From Micromonospora narathiwatensis (GTDB taxonomy: Bacteria > Actinomycetota > Actinomycetes > Mycobacteriales > Micromonosporaceae): 64,000 nt of DNA. How positions within the stretch are numbered: position 1 is the stretch's first letter; each line of letters begins with the position of its first letter. The DNA lies in the NCBI RefSeq assembly GCF_900089605.1, contig NZ_LT594324.1, positions 6,200,001-6,264,000 of the forward strand. Reading direction: 5' to 3'. The notes under the pieces were generated by a model. That model was given only the letters and a program-made list of their open reading frames with translations, was not told where the DNA came from and ran no database searches. This document shows positions 47,558 through 60,588 of the stretch, piece after piece. Both the position numbers and the translations under genes were made by a program.

Positions 47558-47638
47558 GCCCGGGTGGTGGAACGGCAGACACGGCCGCCTTAAAAGCGGC
47601 TGCCGCGAGGCGTGCGGGTTCGAGCCCCGCCCCGGGCA
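47558..47638 (+). tRNA. bldA: tRNA-Leu (anticodon UAA), bldA type
   Basis: The acceptor GCCCGGG (47558-47564) pairs with CCCGGGC (47631-47637), and the discriminator is A at 47638. The anticodon arm GCCGC/GCGGC encloses CTTAAAA, so the anticodon is TAA at 47591-47593. A variable arm (TGCCGCGAGGCG region) and a T arm GCGGG-TTCGAGC-CCCGC make a class II tRNA. CCA is not encoded (ACCCA follows). It reads the rare UUA codon, which in Streptomyces (bldA) controls development and antibiotics. Confidence 0.95.
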
Positions 47639-47747
47639 CCCAGACTCTCAGGTTTCCCACAGCTTCACTCCCGGCGCGGGGGTGCACGTCCCGTTTACCC
47701 TGGAGGGGCGCGTTCGCGTGCATCGACCCCCTGAGGGAGGCCTGAAA

Positions 47748-55176: not shown

Positions 55177-55686
55177 TCACAGCAGGCGGGTGTAGCGGAG
55201 CTGGGGGACCAGCGCCGAGCCGATGTGTTCGTCGCGTACCAGACCGGTGGCGGTCCAGCCGCCGCCCTCGTAGAAGCGGCGGGCGGGCCCGTTCTCCCGG
55301 AGCACCCACAGCGCCGCGCGGGACCAGCCGCGCGCCCGCATCGCGGCCAGGGCGTCGACCATCAGCGCCCGGCCGGTGCCCCGGCCCCGCTCCGCCGGCT
55401 CCAGGTGGATGGCGTTGAGCAGCCCGGTATCCGGGTCGTCGGCGTCGTCCGGCCCGAGGTAGCTGAAGCCGACCAGCCGGTCGTCGCGTACGGCCACCGT
55501 CATCCGGTGCTCCGCGCCCTCCCAGATCAGCCGCTCCACCCAGTACCGGCCCATCTCCTCCGGCGCCGGTCGGGCCAGCGCCTCCGCCGGCAGGAACGAC
55601 GAGTACGCCGCCACCCGGGACCGCTGGTGCAGCGCACCGACCGCCATCAGGTCGGCCTCGGTGGCGGCGCGCAGCGTGATCGTCAC
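55177..55686 (-). CDS. GNAT family N-acetyltransferase
   Basis: The 169-residue protein has the GNAT acetyl-CoA motif [19 protein letters not shown] at the start and R-F-Y-E-G-G-G-W near the end. The acceptor is unknown. It is coupled to rnz, since its GTG at 55686 overlaps the rnz stop as GTGA. Confidence 0.88.
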
Positions 55687-56606
55687 CGGTCCGAGGCTAC
55701 CCGTCGGGGCGGCACCGGCACGGTCATCAGGTCCTCGGCGATCACCAGCTCACCGGTGAAGTGCTGCCGGGCCTCGTCGGCGAAGCGGCGCGGGTCGGCG
55801 TACCGCTGGGAGAAGTGGGTCAGCACGAGCGTGCGTACCGCCGACTCGGCCGCCACCCGCGCGGCCTGCGCGGCGGTGAGGTGGCCGACCTCGGCGGCGA
55901 GCGCGGCCTCCGACTCCAGGAACGTCGACTCGATGACCAGCAGGTCGGCGTGCTCGGCCAGGGCCCACACCCCGTCGCAGAGCCCGGTGTCCATCACGAA
56001 CGCGAACCGCTGCCCCGGCCGGGTCACGCTCACCTCGTCCCGGGTGACGCGACGTCCGTCCAGGTCCAGGTGGCCGTCGCGGAGCAACTCGCCGACCGCC
56101 GGACCGGCGATGCCGTACGCGGCCAGCTTCTCCGGCAGCATCCGGCAGCCGTCCGGCTCGACCAGGCGGTAACCGTACGTCTCGATCGGGTGCCGCAGCC
56201 GGCGGGCCTCCAGCGTGCCGATCCCCAGGGTGATCCGCTGCCCGTCGGCCCCGATCGGCTCGACGGCCAGCTCGGCGGTCTCGTAGAAGCTCGCCGCGTG
56301 GCGCAGCCGGGCGAAGTAGTCCGCGCCGCCGGCGGGGAAGTGGACGGCCACCGGGTGCGGCACCCGGTCGAGCGAGAGCCGCTGGATCACGCCGGGCAGC
56401 CCGAGGCAGTGGTCGCCGTGGAAGTGGGTGACGCAGATCCGGGTGAGGTCGGTGGCGGAGATCCCGGTGTGCAGCATCTGCCGCTGGCTGCCCTCGCCCG
56501 GGTCGAAGAGGAGCACCTCGTCGTCCCAGCGCAGCAGGTAGCCGTTGTGGTTGCGCTGTCGGGTGGGGGCCTGACTGGCCGTCCCGAGCACCACCAGCTC
56601 GCGCAT
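55683..56606 (-). CDS. rnz: Ribonuclease Z (tRNA 3' endonuclease)
   Basis: The 307-residue metallo-beta-lactamase-fold enzyme removes 3' trailers from tRNA precursors. The zinc motif H-F-H-G-D-H is at 61-66, with [10 protein letters not shown] and [10 protein letters not shown] typical of RNase Z before it, and L-T-H-F-S-Q-R-Y near the end. ATG at 56606 has AGGAGG upstream. tRNAs without an encoded CCA, such as the one at 47558, depend on this enzyme. The gene has a structured leader of about 250 bases with an upstream open frame. Confidence 0.94.
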
Positions 56607-56638
56607 CGACACGGCTCCTCCTGCCGCTGGCATGAAGC

Positions 56639-56698
56639 GACCCCCGGGGCTTCCGCGCTCGCGCGGGCCGGCTGGACTGGGCCGGCACCCCGGGGGTC
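56639..56698 (-). promoter_or_regulatory. Large hairpin in the rnz leader
   Basis: GACCCCCGGGG and its exact reverse complement (arms 56639-56649 and 56688-56698) close a 60-base structure that ends 33 bases before the rnz start. There is no T-run. Its location between the 12-codon open frame and rnz fits an attenuator or an expression-limiting structure. Confidence 0.6.
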
Positions 56699-56797
56699 GG
56701 GTGGCTGTCGTAGATTCGCCGCACCGCTGCCACACGGTCTCGACGATGGTGCCTGTGCCCGCCTCGCGGCGGACGGGATTACTGTCGAGGACAGCGG

Positions 56798-56836
56798 CTA
56801 GCGGACAGCCACCTCACGAGTCCGATTGCTATACAA
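56798..56836 (-). CDS. 12-codon upstream open frame with extended ribosome-binding site (rnz leader)
   Basis: TTG at 56836-56834 starts a 12-codon frame ([11 protein letters not shown]) ending at a TAG at 56800-56798. The preceding GGAAAGGAGGTGGTCC (56856-56841) is nearly complementary to the 16S rRNA 3' tail over 16 bases. Small hairpins (CTGTC/GACAG, CCGCC-GCGA-GGCGG) follow the stop. It looks like a leader peptide. Confidence 0.55.
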
Positions 56837-56840
56837 AGCT

Positions 56841-56897
56841 GGACCACCTCCTTTCCCGTGTACCGTCACGCTATCCACTACCGCGTGACCCCGGCAA
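56841..56897 (-). promoter_or_regulatory. Promoter and extended Shine-Dalgarno site of the rnz leader
   Basis: On the minus strand TTGCCG (56897-56892) and TAGCGT (56873-56868) are separated by 18 bases. Initiation near 56861 would place the extended SD about five bases from the 5' end. The remaining spacer to the synthetase-gene terminator has no coding content. Confidence 0.6.
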
Positions 56898-56974: not shown

Positions 56975-58801
56975 TCATCGGATGCCGCCCGCACCGGCCG
57001 GCGACCAGAGCCGCCGCGGCGCCCGGGTGCCGGGGAAGAGCAGGTCGACGAAGCGTTCGGCGGTCGGCTGCGGTTCGTGGTTGGCCAGCCCGGGCCGCTC
57101 GTTCGCCTCGACGAAGACGTGCTCCGGCCGGTCGGGGGCGGGCAACAGCAGGTCGAGCCCCGTGACCGGGATGTCCAGCGCCCGGCTGGCCGTCACGCAC
57201 GCCGTGGCGATCGCCGGGTGCAGCTCGGCGGTCACGTCGTGGATGGTGCCGCCGGTGTGCAGGTTGGCGGTCCGGCGTACGGCCAGCACCTGCCCCTCGG
57301 GGAGCACGTCGTGCATCCGGTGGCCGGCCTCGGCCACCACCTCGCGGGTCATGTCGTCGACCGGGATCCGCGACTCGCCCCCGGTGGCGGCGGCCCGGCG
57401 CCGGCTCTGCCGCTCGATCAGCTCGGTGACGTCGTGCACCCCGTCCCCGGTGATCTGCGCCGGCCGGCGGACCGCCGCGGCCACCACCTCGTGGTCGATC
57501 ACGATCACCCGCAGGTCCTCGCCCGCGCAGCGCTCCTCGATCAGCACGTCCGGGCAGCATCGCCGGGCCAGCTCGACCGCCGCCGTCAGCCCCTCCGGCG
57601 TACGCACCCCGACGGTGATGCCTCTGCCCTGCTCGCCCCGGGCCGGCTTGACCACCACCGGGCCGACGTCGGCCAGAAAGGCCAGGTCGTCGGCGTCGCC
57701 GGTGGCGGTCCGGCCGCGCGGCACGGGAAGCCCCGCCTCGGTGAGGACCCGCCGGGTCACCCGCTTGTCGTCGCAGCGGCTCATCGCCACCGCCGAGGTC
57801 AGCTCCGACAGCGACTCCCGGGTGTGGATGGTGCGGCCGCCGTTGACCAGGCGCAGCTCACCCCAGTCGGGATCGGTGACCTCCACCCGGATGCCGCGCC
57901 GCATCGCCTCGTCGGCGACGATCCTCGCGTACGGGTTGAGCTGGTCGTAGCCGGGCGGGGTGGCGGGGAGGAAGAGCCGCTCGTTGATCGGGTTCTTCCG
58001 CTTCACGCACAGCGCGCCGGTGCGGTGGAAGCCCAGCCGTTCGTAGAGCCGGATCGCGCCGGAGTTCTCGGCCAGCACCGACAGGTCCACGTACGCGCGG
58101 CCCCGCGCGTCGAGCCGGTCGGCCAGCGCGGTGAGCAGGGCCTGGCCGGTACCGGGCGGCGCGGTGTTGAAGTCCACGGTCAGGCACCAGAGGCTGGCCC
58201 CGTTCTCCGGGTCGGCGAAGACCGCGGCGTGGTCCACCCCGGTGATGGTGCCGACCACCTCGCCGGTGCTGTCCTCGGCGACCAGGTGCAGGAACCTGTC
58301 GCCGCCCGCGTTGTCGACCAGCACCCGTACCGGGGCGGTGACCATGCCGTTGCGGGCGTAGATCCGGTTCACCGCGTCCGCGTCGTCGGCGTCGCGCAGC
58401 GGTCGGATGCTCAGGCCGGGGACGTCGTCGCCCTCGCTGGCGGTCGGCCGGCGCTCGCCGAGCGGCAGCCGGTAGGTCAGCGACGGGTCGATGAACAGCT
58501 CGTCCGGCAGCCGGGAGACCAGCACGTGCGGGTCGCGCAGGTAGACGCAGATGTCCCGGGCGCCGGCCGCCTCCGAGCGCAGCACGTCGGCGACGGCGGT
58601 CTGCTCGGTGAAGGTCTGCCCGAAGACCAGCCGGCCCCAGCCGCAGTCCAGCACCACGCCGGCACCGGCGGACGGCCGCCGGCCGGGCTCGGGTCCGCCC
58701 GGCGCGACCGGGTCGCCGCCCGGGCCGACGCGTTCCCGGCGACTGCCCGACATCCATTCCCGGTCGAGGCGAGCCGTGCCGATGGCGAGGGTGTCGGTCA
58801 T
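56975..58801 (-). CDS. ngg: N-acetylglutaminylglutamine synthetase (GNAT-ATP-grasp fusion)
   Basis: The 608-residue bifunctional protein has an N-terminal region, a GNAT domain at about 120-290 (L-S-V-L-A-E-N-S-G-A-I-R-L-Y-E-R-L-G-F) and a C-terminal ATP-grasp ligase (V-V-V-K-P-A-R-G-E-Q-G-R-G-I-T-V, V-E-A-N-E-R-P-G). This is the architecture of Ngg, which makes N-acetylglutaminylglutamine, precursor of the osmolyte NAGGN. ATG at 58801 lies two bases after the amidotransferase stop. The usual third gene, a peptidase, is absent. The assignment rests on domain architecture and neighbour. Confidence 0.88.
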   Translation of the reverse strand: MTDTLAIGTARLDREWMSGSRRERVGPGGDPVAPGGPEPGRRPSAGAGVVLDCGWGRLVFGQTFTEQTAVADVLRSEAAGARDICVYLRDPHVLVSRLPDELFIDPSLTYRLPLGERRPTASEGDDVPGLSIRPLRDADDADAVNRIYARNGMVTAPVRVLVDNAGGDRFLHLVAEDSTGEVVGTITGVDHAAVFADPENGASLWCLTVDFNTAPPGTGQALLTALADRLDARGRAYVDLSVLAENSGAIRLYERLGFHRTGALCVKRKNPINERLFLPATPPGYDQLNPYARIVADEAMRRGIRVEVTDPDWGELRLVNGGRTIHTRESLSELTSAVAMSRCDDKRVTRRVLTEAGLPVPRGRTATGDADDLAFLADVGPVVVKPARGEQGRGITVGVRTPEGLTAAVELARRCCPDVLIEERCAGEDLRVIVIDHEVVAAAVRRPAQITGDGVHDVTELIERQSRRRAAATGGESRIPVDDMTREVVAEAGHRMHDVLPEGQVLAVRRTANLHTGGTIHDVTAELHPAIATACVTASRALDIPVTGLDLLLPAPDRPEHVFVEANERPGLANHEPQPTAERFVDLLFPGTRAPRRLWSPAGAGGIR

Positions 58802-58803
58802 CC

Positions 58804-60588
58804 TCAGTCGATTCCGTGGCTCTGGAGCCACATTTCCAGGAGTCCGAGTTGCCACAGCTTGTTTCCGTTCAACGGGGTCAGTTCGGCGTTCGGGTCGGCG
58901 AGCAGCGCGTCGACGTACTCGGTGCGGAACAGGTCGCGGCGGCGGGCCCCGGGCGCGGTGAGGGCGTCGCGTACCCGGTCGAGGAGCTTGCCCTCCAGAT
59001 GGGTGAGGCCCGGCACCGGGAAGTAGCCCTTCGGCCGGTCGATCACCTGGTGCGGCAGGACCCGGCGGCCGATCTCCTTGAGCACGCCCTTGCCGCCCTG
59101 GGCCAGCTTCAGCTCCGGCGGGCAGCTCGCGGCCAACTCCACGAACTCGTGGTCGAGGAACGGCACCCGGGCCTCCAGCCCGTGCGCCATGGTCATGTTG
59201 TCCACCCGCTTGACCGGGTCGTCGGTCAGCATCACCTCGGTGTCGATCCGCAGGCCGGCGTCGACCGCGGTCCGCGCCCCGGGCCGGGCCAGGTGCGCGG
59301 CCAGGAACTCCCGGGCCGGGTCGCCGTCGGCCAGCCACGCCGGGTTGAGCACCCGGGCCAGGCCGGCCGCGTCGCGGTCGAGGAAGGCTTCCGCGTACGT
59401 ATCCAGCGCGCGCTCCCGGTCGACCTCGGCCAGCGGGGGATACCAGTGGTAGCCGCCCAGGATCTCGTCCGCGCCCTGGCCGGACTGGACCACCTTCACG
59501 TGCCGGACGACCTCCTGGCTGAGCAGCCAGAACGCCACACAGTCGTGGCTGACCATCGGCTCGCTCATCGCCGCGACGGCGGCCTCCAGCGGCGGCAGCA
59601 GGTCGCCGGTGGGCACCCTGATCCGGTGGTGGTCGGTGCCGAAGGTCTTGGCGACCAGGTCGGAGTAGCCGAACTCGTCGCCCGCCCGGCCGCCGACGGA
59701 GTCGAAGCCGATGGAGAACGTGGACAGACCCGACTGTCCCTCCCCGGCCAGCAGGGCGACGATCAGGCTGGAGTCGAGCCCGCCGGAGAGCAGTACGCCG
59801 ACCGGCACGTCGGCCACCGTCCGGCGGCGTACGGCGGTGGTCAGCGACTCCAGCAGCGCGTCCTGCCAGTCCCGCTCGGTCCAGTCGGCCCGCTCGGCGG
59901 CACGGCTGAAGGACGGCTGCCAGTAGACCCGTTCCCGGGTCGAGCCGTCCGGCTCGTACACCCGGATCGTGGCCGGGGGGAGCTTGGCGACGCCGCGCAG
60001 GATGGTCCGCGGCGGCGGCACGATGCTGTGGAAGCTCAGGTAGTGGGCGAGTCCCACCGGGTCGATCGTCGTGTCGACGCCGCCACCGGCCAGCAGCGCC
60101 GGCAGCGTGCTGGCGAAGCGGACCACGCCCGGCGTCTCGGTCAGGTAGAGCGGCTTGATGCCGAGCCGGTCCCGGGCCAGTACCAGCCGGCCGGTGTCGC
60201 GTTCGCTGATCGCCACGGCGAACATGCCGGTCAGGTGGTCGACGAAGTCGAGCCCCCACTCGGCGTACGCCTTGACCACGACCTCGCTGTCCCCGGCGGA
60301 GAAGAAGTGGTGGCCCCTGGCCTGCAACTCCGCGCGCAGATCCCGATAGTTGTAGATGCAACCGTTGAAGACGGCGGTGAGGCCGGCGGCGGCGTCGACG
60401 ATCGGCTGGCCGCTGGCCGCGGAAAGGTCGATGATCTTCAGGCGTCGGTGTCCCAGGGCGATCGGGCCCTGTGACCACACCCCGCTGTCGTCCGGTCCTC
60501 GGTCACTCATGGTGGCCGCCATGCGCTCCACTGCCGCCACGTCGGCGCGTGAACCGTCACGGCGGAACTCCCCAGCCAGTCCGCACAT
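58804..60588 (-). CDS. asnO: N-acetylglutaminylglutamine amidotransferase (asparagine synthetase-like)
   Basis: The 594-residue class II glutamine amidotransferase has the catalytic Cys2 (M-C-G-L-A-G-E), an N-terminal glutaminase domain with G-D-S-E-V-V-V and R-D-R-L-G-I-K-P-L-Y, and a synthetase domain with PP-loop S-G-G-L-D-S-S at 268-274. It would amidate the dipeptide to NAGGN. Without the ngg neighbour it would be called asparagine synthetase. ATG at 60588 begins with the essential M-C-G. The 149-base upstream region has only a weak promoter candidate. Confidence 0.9.
   Translation of the reverse strand: MCGLAGEFRRDGSRADVAAVERMAATMSDRGPDDSGVWSQGPIALGHRRLKIIDLSAASGQPIVDAAAGLTAVFNGCIYNYRDLRAELQARGHHFFSAGDSEVVVKAYAEWGLDFVDHLTGMFAVAISERDTGRLVLARDRLGIKPLYLTETPGVVRFASTLPALLAGGGVDTTIDPVGLAHYLSFHSIVPPPRTILRGVAKLPPATIRVYEPDGSTRERVYWQPSFSRAAERADWTERDWQDALLESLTTAVRRRTVADVPVGVLLSGGLDSSLIVALLAGEGQSGLSTFSIGFDSVGGRAGDEFGYSDLVAKTFGTDHHRIRVPTGDLLPPLEAAVAAMSEPMVSHDCVAFWLLSQEVVRHVKVVQSGQGADEILGGYHWYPPLAEVDRERALDTYAEAFLDRDAAGLARVLNPAWLADGDPAREFLAAHLARPGARTAVDAGLRIDTEVMLTDDPVKRVDNMTMAHGLEARVPFLDHEFVELAASCPPELKLAQGGKGVLKEIGRRVLPHQVIDRPKGYFPVPGLTHLEGKLLDRVRDALTAPGARRRDLFRTEYVDALLADPNAELTPLNGNKLWQLGLLEMWLQSHGID

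Follow-up and report, generated by a model that had tools for sequence, protein, structure and literature searches.

We found that the minus strand of the window (the whole 64-kb stretch of DNA that was analysed) carries, from 56861 to 56632, a full-length match to the Rfam family RF02471, Ms_IGR-5 (cmscan, 91.8 bits against a gathering cut-off of 45, model positions 1-184 of 184), of which the Micromonospora narathiwatensis genome has one copy. Ms_IGR-5 is catalogued as a small RNA but unexplained, and it has been retained in much of a phylum that includes both antibiotic producers and major pathogens; it looks like a translated, pseudoknotted RNA and holds the strongest 16S-pairing site in the surrounding 64 kb. 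A preliminary description of this locus had noticed a promoter, an anti-16S tract, a TTG-started frame and hairpins before the ribonuclease Z gene rnz, and had read them together as a ribosome-sensing attenuator of that gene. Each of these elements was confirmed in the sequence, and of the interpretation there stand the very strong ribosome binding site and a conserved short frame in a conserved structure, but not a general rnz leader. Ms_IGR-5 is a small RNA gene widespread in actinobacteria and not mainly an rnz switch, and we hold the structural and frame claims made for it below with high confidence.

Ms_IGR-5 was reportedly first found in M. smegmatis. In those portions of later published work that were accessible, the family has RNA-seq support in Streptomyces lividans and appears as a small-RNA transcription unit in Streptomyces avermitilis, ribosome-protected reads lie on it in M. 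abscessus and M. smegmatis, and cold-stress work in M. smegmatis describes an overlap with IGR-5. The authors of the M. abscessus study warn that ribosome-protected reads on non-coding RNAs need not mean translation. From its position, our guess is that the Streptomyces member is scr4389. The open-access literature, as far as its accessible text goes, gave no function or ORF for Ms_IGR-5 and no account of its 16S pairing, frame, stop spacing, or P1, pseudoknot and P3 helices.

The RNA gene occupies 56632..56863 on the minus strand, as judged by the RF02471 match and a fold z-score of -4.67, and its 5' end probably lies near 56863-56861, as placed from the position of the -10 element. Upstream the minus strand reads TTGCCG-18-TAGCGT, followed downstream by GUACACGGGAAAGGAGGUGGUCCAGCUUUGUAUAGC; the -35 element TTGCCG is at 56892..56897 and the -10 element TAGCGT at 56868..56873. 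The -10 is conserved in place across loci, 108 of 136 having a TANNNT whose first base falls at -24 to -17 relative to AAGGAGG, and TTG at -45..-43 from AAGGAGG has 84 occurrences in the same 136 loci. The promoter that had been proposed earlier is thus borne out in its letters, its spacing and the kept place of its -10, but a generic scan called neither a promoter nor a terminator at the locus, the terminator scan being of the T-tail type. The RNA closes with P6, a G+C-rich hairpin of 12 bp (56638..56699, minus strand, 56699-56688 with 56649-56638) evident in the sequence and in the energy fold; this is the large hairpin to which an 11-bp stem had been attributed, present as described except for the stem length, and it is probably a terminator without a T-tail. 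We also considered carriage on phages or plasmids and rejected it: the pattern had no match in viral contigs, and among plasmid records a single match was found, to a 2.66 Mb Nocardia record, over 29% of the query.

Comparisons were made over 237 loci in three sets, with three sequences common to more than one set. Set 1 comprises all 57 matches of the Rfam model in 296 genomes of the phylum at E 0.001, of which 26 are over the cut-off, and the same model had matches in 0 of 14 control genomes. Set 2 was obtained by a pattern scan of named genomes, which yielded at least 120 loci, taken as 80 and a further 40 (L149-L188); SD1, SD2 and GCT, whose T belongs to the stop, are fixed by its pattern, and 78 of the 80 loci are labelled as actinobacteria. 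A model built on set 1, R1, matched 153 of 396 phylum genomes at E 0.01 or below, 142 of them at 1e-5 or below, and set 3 consists of 60 loci picked from its new matches. The range given by R1 (153/396 at E 0.01) is wider than that given by the Rfam model (57/296 at E 0.001), the two coming from different samples and limits. R1 fails to find the family in 10 genomes from the same order or class and gives two matches in 5 of the 153, at least one of which is false (L241); Ms_IGR-5 is not universal in the phylum. The further 40 loci enter the frame and rnz counts and stand outside those of the pseudoknot, P3, tract letters and tree. All counts of changes on the tree are rough, since the tree was made from the RNA itself with the trait columns masked. 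Two family loci, L112 and L133, come from metagenome-assembled genomes labelled Bryobacterales and Acidobacteriota, and L133 is suggested to be mis-binned because its frame closely resembles those of the Acidimicrobiales loci L121 and L141.

SD1, the tract GAAAGGAGGTGGTCCAGC at 56838..56855 on the minus strand, is among the most constant elements of the family and is recognised by its 16S complementarity, its letters across loci and its changes on the tree. The 3' end of 16S, GGCTGGATCACCTCCTTTCT, occurs at three places in the genome, which were taken as 16S genes from the sequence. SD1 is predicted to pair with 20 of the 20 terminal 16S bases, G-U pairs included, at -37.5 kcal/mol, and the next-best place in the 64-kb window, scanned in steps of 4, reaches -29.7 kcal/mol. 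A search for GAAAGGAGGTGRTCC with zero mismatch gave four sites in 6.6 Mb, three antisense to the 16S ends and the fourth SD1, in agreement with the near-full complementarity to the 16S tail first ascribed to this tract. When up to two mismatches were allowed, the pattern had 21 sites and the same pattern reversed had 20, which makes the looser matches a matter of chance; the exact tract is not due to chance, because the element recurs across the phylum.

Among the letters of 189 loci, all but three departures from the perfect complement at tract positions -2 to +12 replace A by G where 16S has U, or C by U where 16S has G; at position -3 a non-pairing base occurs in 16 of the 189. Positions -1, 0 and +1, which the set 2 pattern did not fix, show 56 departures in the 80 loci, all 56 being A to G with G-U pairing kept, and on the tree at least 60 changes, all A/G, were counted roughly at these positions. 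At -3, pairing is broken in 7 of the 32 departures in set 2. The substitutions in the tract look like drift against an invariant 16S partner, and they mostly keep pairing; a demand for purines alone would cover -1, 0 and +1 but not the C to U changes at +11 and +12, which the search patterns partly fixed. Position +9 (window 56844, minus strand), which the set 2 pattern fixed, has G and not A opposite a 16S U in 180 of 189 loci, and there the wobble appears to be preferred over the Watson-Crick pair.

Behind the tract lies a micro-ORF of 12 codons and a stop, the TTG-started frame of the preliminary description, which reads UUG UAU AGC AAU CGG ACU CGU GAG GUG GCU GUC CGC UAG from TTG 56836 to TAG 56798 (56798..56836, minus strand). 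The same description had made its reading depend on the conservation of frame and SD in related genomes, and both proved to be conserved: a short frame running from AUG or a one-base variant of it to a stop 14-15 bases after GAGGTG is found in 235 of 237 loci (set 1, 57/57; set 2, 80/80 and a further 40/40; set 3, 58/60, of which 53 of 54 at first examination and five more with a wider pattern). Measured first base to first base, the GAGGTG element, SD2 (56810..56815, minus strand), precedes the stop by 15 bases in this window and in 218 of the 235 loci and by 14 in 17; in set 1 the figures are 55 and 2. In the 17, GAGGTG is read in another frame, and the start shifts along with the stop. These 17 are L051, L054, L203, L207, L209, L218, L224, L226, L228, L229, L233, L235, L236, L237, L238, L239 and L240; several short-loop lineages among them seem to be without the GGACC strand, and in these the pseudoknot may be lost or replaced.

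Both ends of the frame vary in identity. The stops of the 235 loci are TAG in 192, TGA in 28 and TAA in 15; the starts are TTG (109), ATG (76), GTG (19), CTG (16), ATT (7), ATC (4), ATA (3) and ACG (1), and 159 of 235 are therefore not AUG. On the tree we counted, roughly, at least 27 changes among stop codons and at least 38 among starts. The main frame count, with n=190, left out seven of 197 loci (L208, L222, L236, L239, L240, L241, L242). Frames were found later in the first five, three of them with GAGGTA at 14, and L241, which has no tract, and L242, which is diverged, stay outside the frame total. A strong start 14-20 bases past the first A of the tract occurs in frame in 161 of the 190 loci against 5 and 5 in the other two frames, an open frame is kept in 189 as compared with 55 and 23, and any listed start is found in frame in 190 against 20 and 42. 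Even the 29 loci with weak starts have a listed start in frame in all 29 against 7 and 3. Taken from sequence comparison, these counts strongly support translation of the micro-ORF.

The preliminary description had also looked to compensatory changes in the stems of an alignment, and P1, the pseudoknot and P3 do covary. P1, a helix of four pairs whose covariation is strong, joins CACG at 56857..56860 with CGTG at 56815..56818 (both strands of the helix on the minus strand) and varies among loci as CACG/CGUG, CCAG/CUGG, CUUC/GAAG, CGAG/CUCG and others. In set 1, 218 of 228 P1 cells are paired (permuted mean 149, maximum 169); in set 2, P1 is fully paired in 64 of 80 loci against a permuted maximum of 39, and in the further loci in 34 of 40. 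At least 59 changes in P1 were counted roughly on the tree. In alignment A1, P1 and the outer part of P3 show 79 two-sided cells against 19 in shuffles and a score of 0.420 against 0.139, and two of five measures of A1 covariation were not above shuffles (pairs with two-sided change, 4 vs 3.2; further pair types, 14 vs 12.8).

The pseudoknot pairs a strand GGACN just before the 3' strand of P1 with the loop of hairpin P5; in the window these are GGACT at 56819..56823, inside the ORF, and AGTCC at 56674..56678, both on the minus strand. Variants such as GGACG/CGUCC, CGGACU/AGUCCG, CGACC/GGUCG and GUGAC/GUCAC occur, and paired cells number 297 of 330 in set 1 (permuted maximum 272) and 362 of 420 in set 2 (342), counts which are without L051 and L054 of set 1 and 10 of the 80 loci of set 2, where the 3' strand of P3 or P5 was not found automatically. 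P3 pairs GGUGRCYG in the ORF with CAGYCACC before P5, here GGTGGCTGTC (56804..56813) with GACAGCCACC (56700..56709) on the minus strand; its mean energy is -14.9 in set 1 against a best permuted mean of -12.35, and -16.2 against -14.5 in set 2. The permutations preserve composition, not relatedness. Set 2 was assigned automatically; in set 1 the assignment was made by eye for eight 3' strands of P3, seven P5 loops and one 5' strand (L021), and this biases that set in favour of structure. In both sets the P5 search accepted only loops with GTC and upstream strands with GAC.

An energy fold of the window RNA contained P1, P3, P4, P5 and P6. P4 (56717..56803, minus strand, 56803-56790 with 56731-56717) contains the stop codon, and similar pairings were seen by eye in other loci; P5 (56667..56686, minus strand, GCCGGC-loop-GCCGGC) appears in the comparison of loci too. 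The minimum-energy fold pairs 9 of the 18 tract bases in weak local helices (3 of 18 in the centroid) and lengthens P1 by using two bases of the pseudoknot strand. Two further helices were tried and rejected. P2, the tract's GGUCC with GGACC, is paired in most loci, yet changes in the partner are not matched by changes in the tract; the first helix of the Rfam model, which by our hand mapping joins GGUGGU of SD1 with RCYGNC of the ORF, has 285 of 342 cells paired with no two-sided change, its 5' strand being near-invariant while the 3' strand varies. The likeness of our locus to RF02471 is in sequence and length over the whole model, far above the cut-off, whereas P1, P3 and the pseudoknot were found in place of that first helix and suggest that the current structure model can be improved; the micro-ORF goes beyond the Rfam description. 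Between P4 and the 3' strand of P3 a linker, GAATCT in the window (56712..56717, minus strand) and GAATCC in the family consensus, is conserved across loci; GAATCC resembles what we take to be the 3' half of a tRNA T-loop, and it is possibly a protein or RNA contact.

These sequence features give Ms_IGR-5 a testable mechanism. We consider it somewhat probable that it is a stand-alone structured RNA encoded on the chromosome and at the same time a micro-mRNA, acting by 30S capture and translation-driven remodelling and having its effect in trans or on its own stability. P1 and the pseudoknot would hold the anti-16S tract of 16-18 bases in a loop at the 5' end, where SD1, with its complementarity and pair-keeping changes, would capture a 30S subunit through the whole 16S tail. 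A start codon that is usually not AUG (UUG, CUG, AUU, others) may set slow initiation, and the ribosome would then pass through P1, the pseudoknot and P3 while reading about 10-17 codons, most of them arbitrary. The stop is placed so that six bases separate the end of SD2 (GAGGTG) from the P-site codon, a spacing by which a terminating ribosome or a left-over 30S could be held at the stop. With a ribosome at the stop P3 and P4 would be open, and with the ribosome gone they would close; the RNA would therefore have two states, set by the efficiency of SD-dependent initiation and termination, and the output would fall in trans or on the RNA's own stability and not on a fixed neighbour. Tentatively, we propose a ribosome sensor, phylum-wide and acting in trans: what is conserved as the product of Ms_IGR-5 would be the translating of about a dozen mostly arbitrary codons. 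Just as tentatively, it would sense whether the 16S tail is intact and how efficiently SD-dependent initiation and termination proceed, and would switch its structured 3' domain in response. We know of no cellular RNA of this kind outside cis leaders.

The features of SD1 and SD2 would also suit a ribosome trap or reserve, in which 30S or 70S particles are held on the two sites and the active pool is tuned, the remodelling being a by-product. Complementarity to the whole 16S tail, the prevalence of non-AUG starts and a spacing of SD2 that fits a ribosome on the stop all speak for it; a pure trap, however, needs neither a kept in-frame stop nor a pseudoknot to a 3' hairpin, and we regard it as unlikely.

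The rnz gene itself (RNase Z-like, named after the preliminary description; 55683..56612, minus strand, GTG start at 56612) begins 25 bases past the last hairpin in the window, and a strong hairpin stands between the frame and rnz; of an alternative terminator and antiterminator, this closing hairpin was recognised in the fold and no antiterminator was noticed. Across 177 loci, 171 of them covered by at least 400 bases downstream of the RNA, rnz lies beside the RNA in seven: L001 and L010 (Micromonospora), L143, L147, L158, L173 and L176. All seven are apparently Micromonosporaceae, Catenuloplanes having been checked, and the other genera and the family of the window being presumed; they make up 7 of the 11 loci placed in that family, and none was found elsewhere. 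In these loci the distance from the tract to the beginning of the rnz match, on the same strand, is 214-271 bases. An attenuator of rnz as the general role of the RNA fails on these numbers, and the link to tRNA maturation that went with it found no support. Because of the 7 of 11 loci and the 25-base gap, ribosome control of rnz as a local use in Micromonosporaceae is conceivable, but we rate it as rather improbable: 170 of 177 loci, four of the same family among them (L072, L085, L162, L183), showed no rnz next to the RNA in the DNA covered, in 41 (31, and 10 among the further 40) the opposite strand downstream carries a nitrobindin-like gene, and the frames of the loci compared, with codons read by eye, have no run of regulatory codons. 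Neighbours of Ms_IGR-5 differ by lineage; elsewhere we take them to be ygfZ and pabC with the opposite-strand nitrobindin-like gene, citrate synthase in either orientation, or other genes. A conserved neighbour was sought and rejected, the largest protein clusters covering 8 of 57 loci and several being shadow frames of one gene. With the actinobacterial leader-peptide attenuators (trpL, leuL, ilvL) the RNA shares a short frame near the 5' end followed by hairpins. Of those in S. lividans, according to the text consulted, most are described as leaderless; they contain codons for the amino acid under regulation and sit upstream of their own gene; Ms_IGR-5, in contrast, is SD-led, has no codon run and no constant downstream gene.

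Could the RNA be a small mRNA whose product is the peptide? The conserved frame would fit this, and in the 82 twelve-codon frames tabulated the E and V of GAG GTG are constant, followed by A or T. These residues, however, coincide with bases fixed by SD2 and P3, GAGGTG falls in another frame in 17 of 235 loci, and free codons 2-4 give a raw dN/dS of 0.74 (151 close pairs, not independent), a value that leaves room for some peptide constraint. The variation of the frame and of its free codons indicates selection on the frame and on where it ends, with hardly any on the peptide, and it seems to be the act of translation, rather than the peptide, that evolution has kept; we consider a peptide product very improbable. 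Dual-function sRNAs of the SgrS/SgrT type have a functional and conserved peptide. Ms_IGR-5 resembles them in combining structure and a reading frame in one RNA and differs in that the frame is kept and the peptide hardly so. That it is a non-coding RNA which pairs with 16S tails and has an accidental frame is scarcely credible, since in spite of the constancy of the tract an in-frame start and stop occur in 235 of 237 loci with three different stop codons, and a listed start turns up in 20 and 42 of 190 loci in the other two frames.

Returning to the structured micro-mRNA that we favour, it has likenesses to tmRNA, on which translation proceeds by resuming: both RNAs are structured and pseudoknotted, and both have a short frame that ends in a helix. 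Ms_IGR-5 differs in having an SD start and no resumption, and a tRNA-like domain was not found, neither ARAGORN nor the Rfam tmRNA model giving a call at the locus. The infC leader has an AUU start sensed by IF3, and what Ms_IGR-5 shares with it, as far as the evidence goes, is a non-canonical start behind a good SD in some lineages. Actinobacteria have many leaderless mRNAs, and Ms_IGR-5 may open a way to learn how they gauge SD-dependent translation. In the surrounding window, 56975-60588 (minus strand), upstream of the RNA, encodes what we presume to be asparagine-synthase-like and GNAT/ATP-grasp proteins as in NAGGN osmolyte synthesis, and a tRNA-Leu(TAA) gene lies at 47558-47640 on the plus strand.
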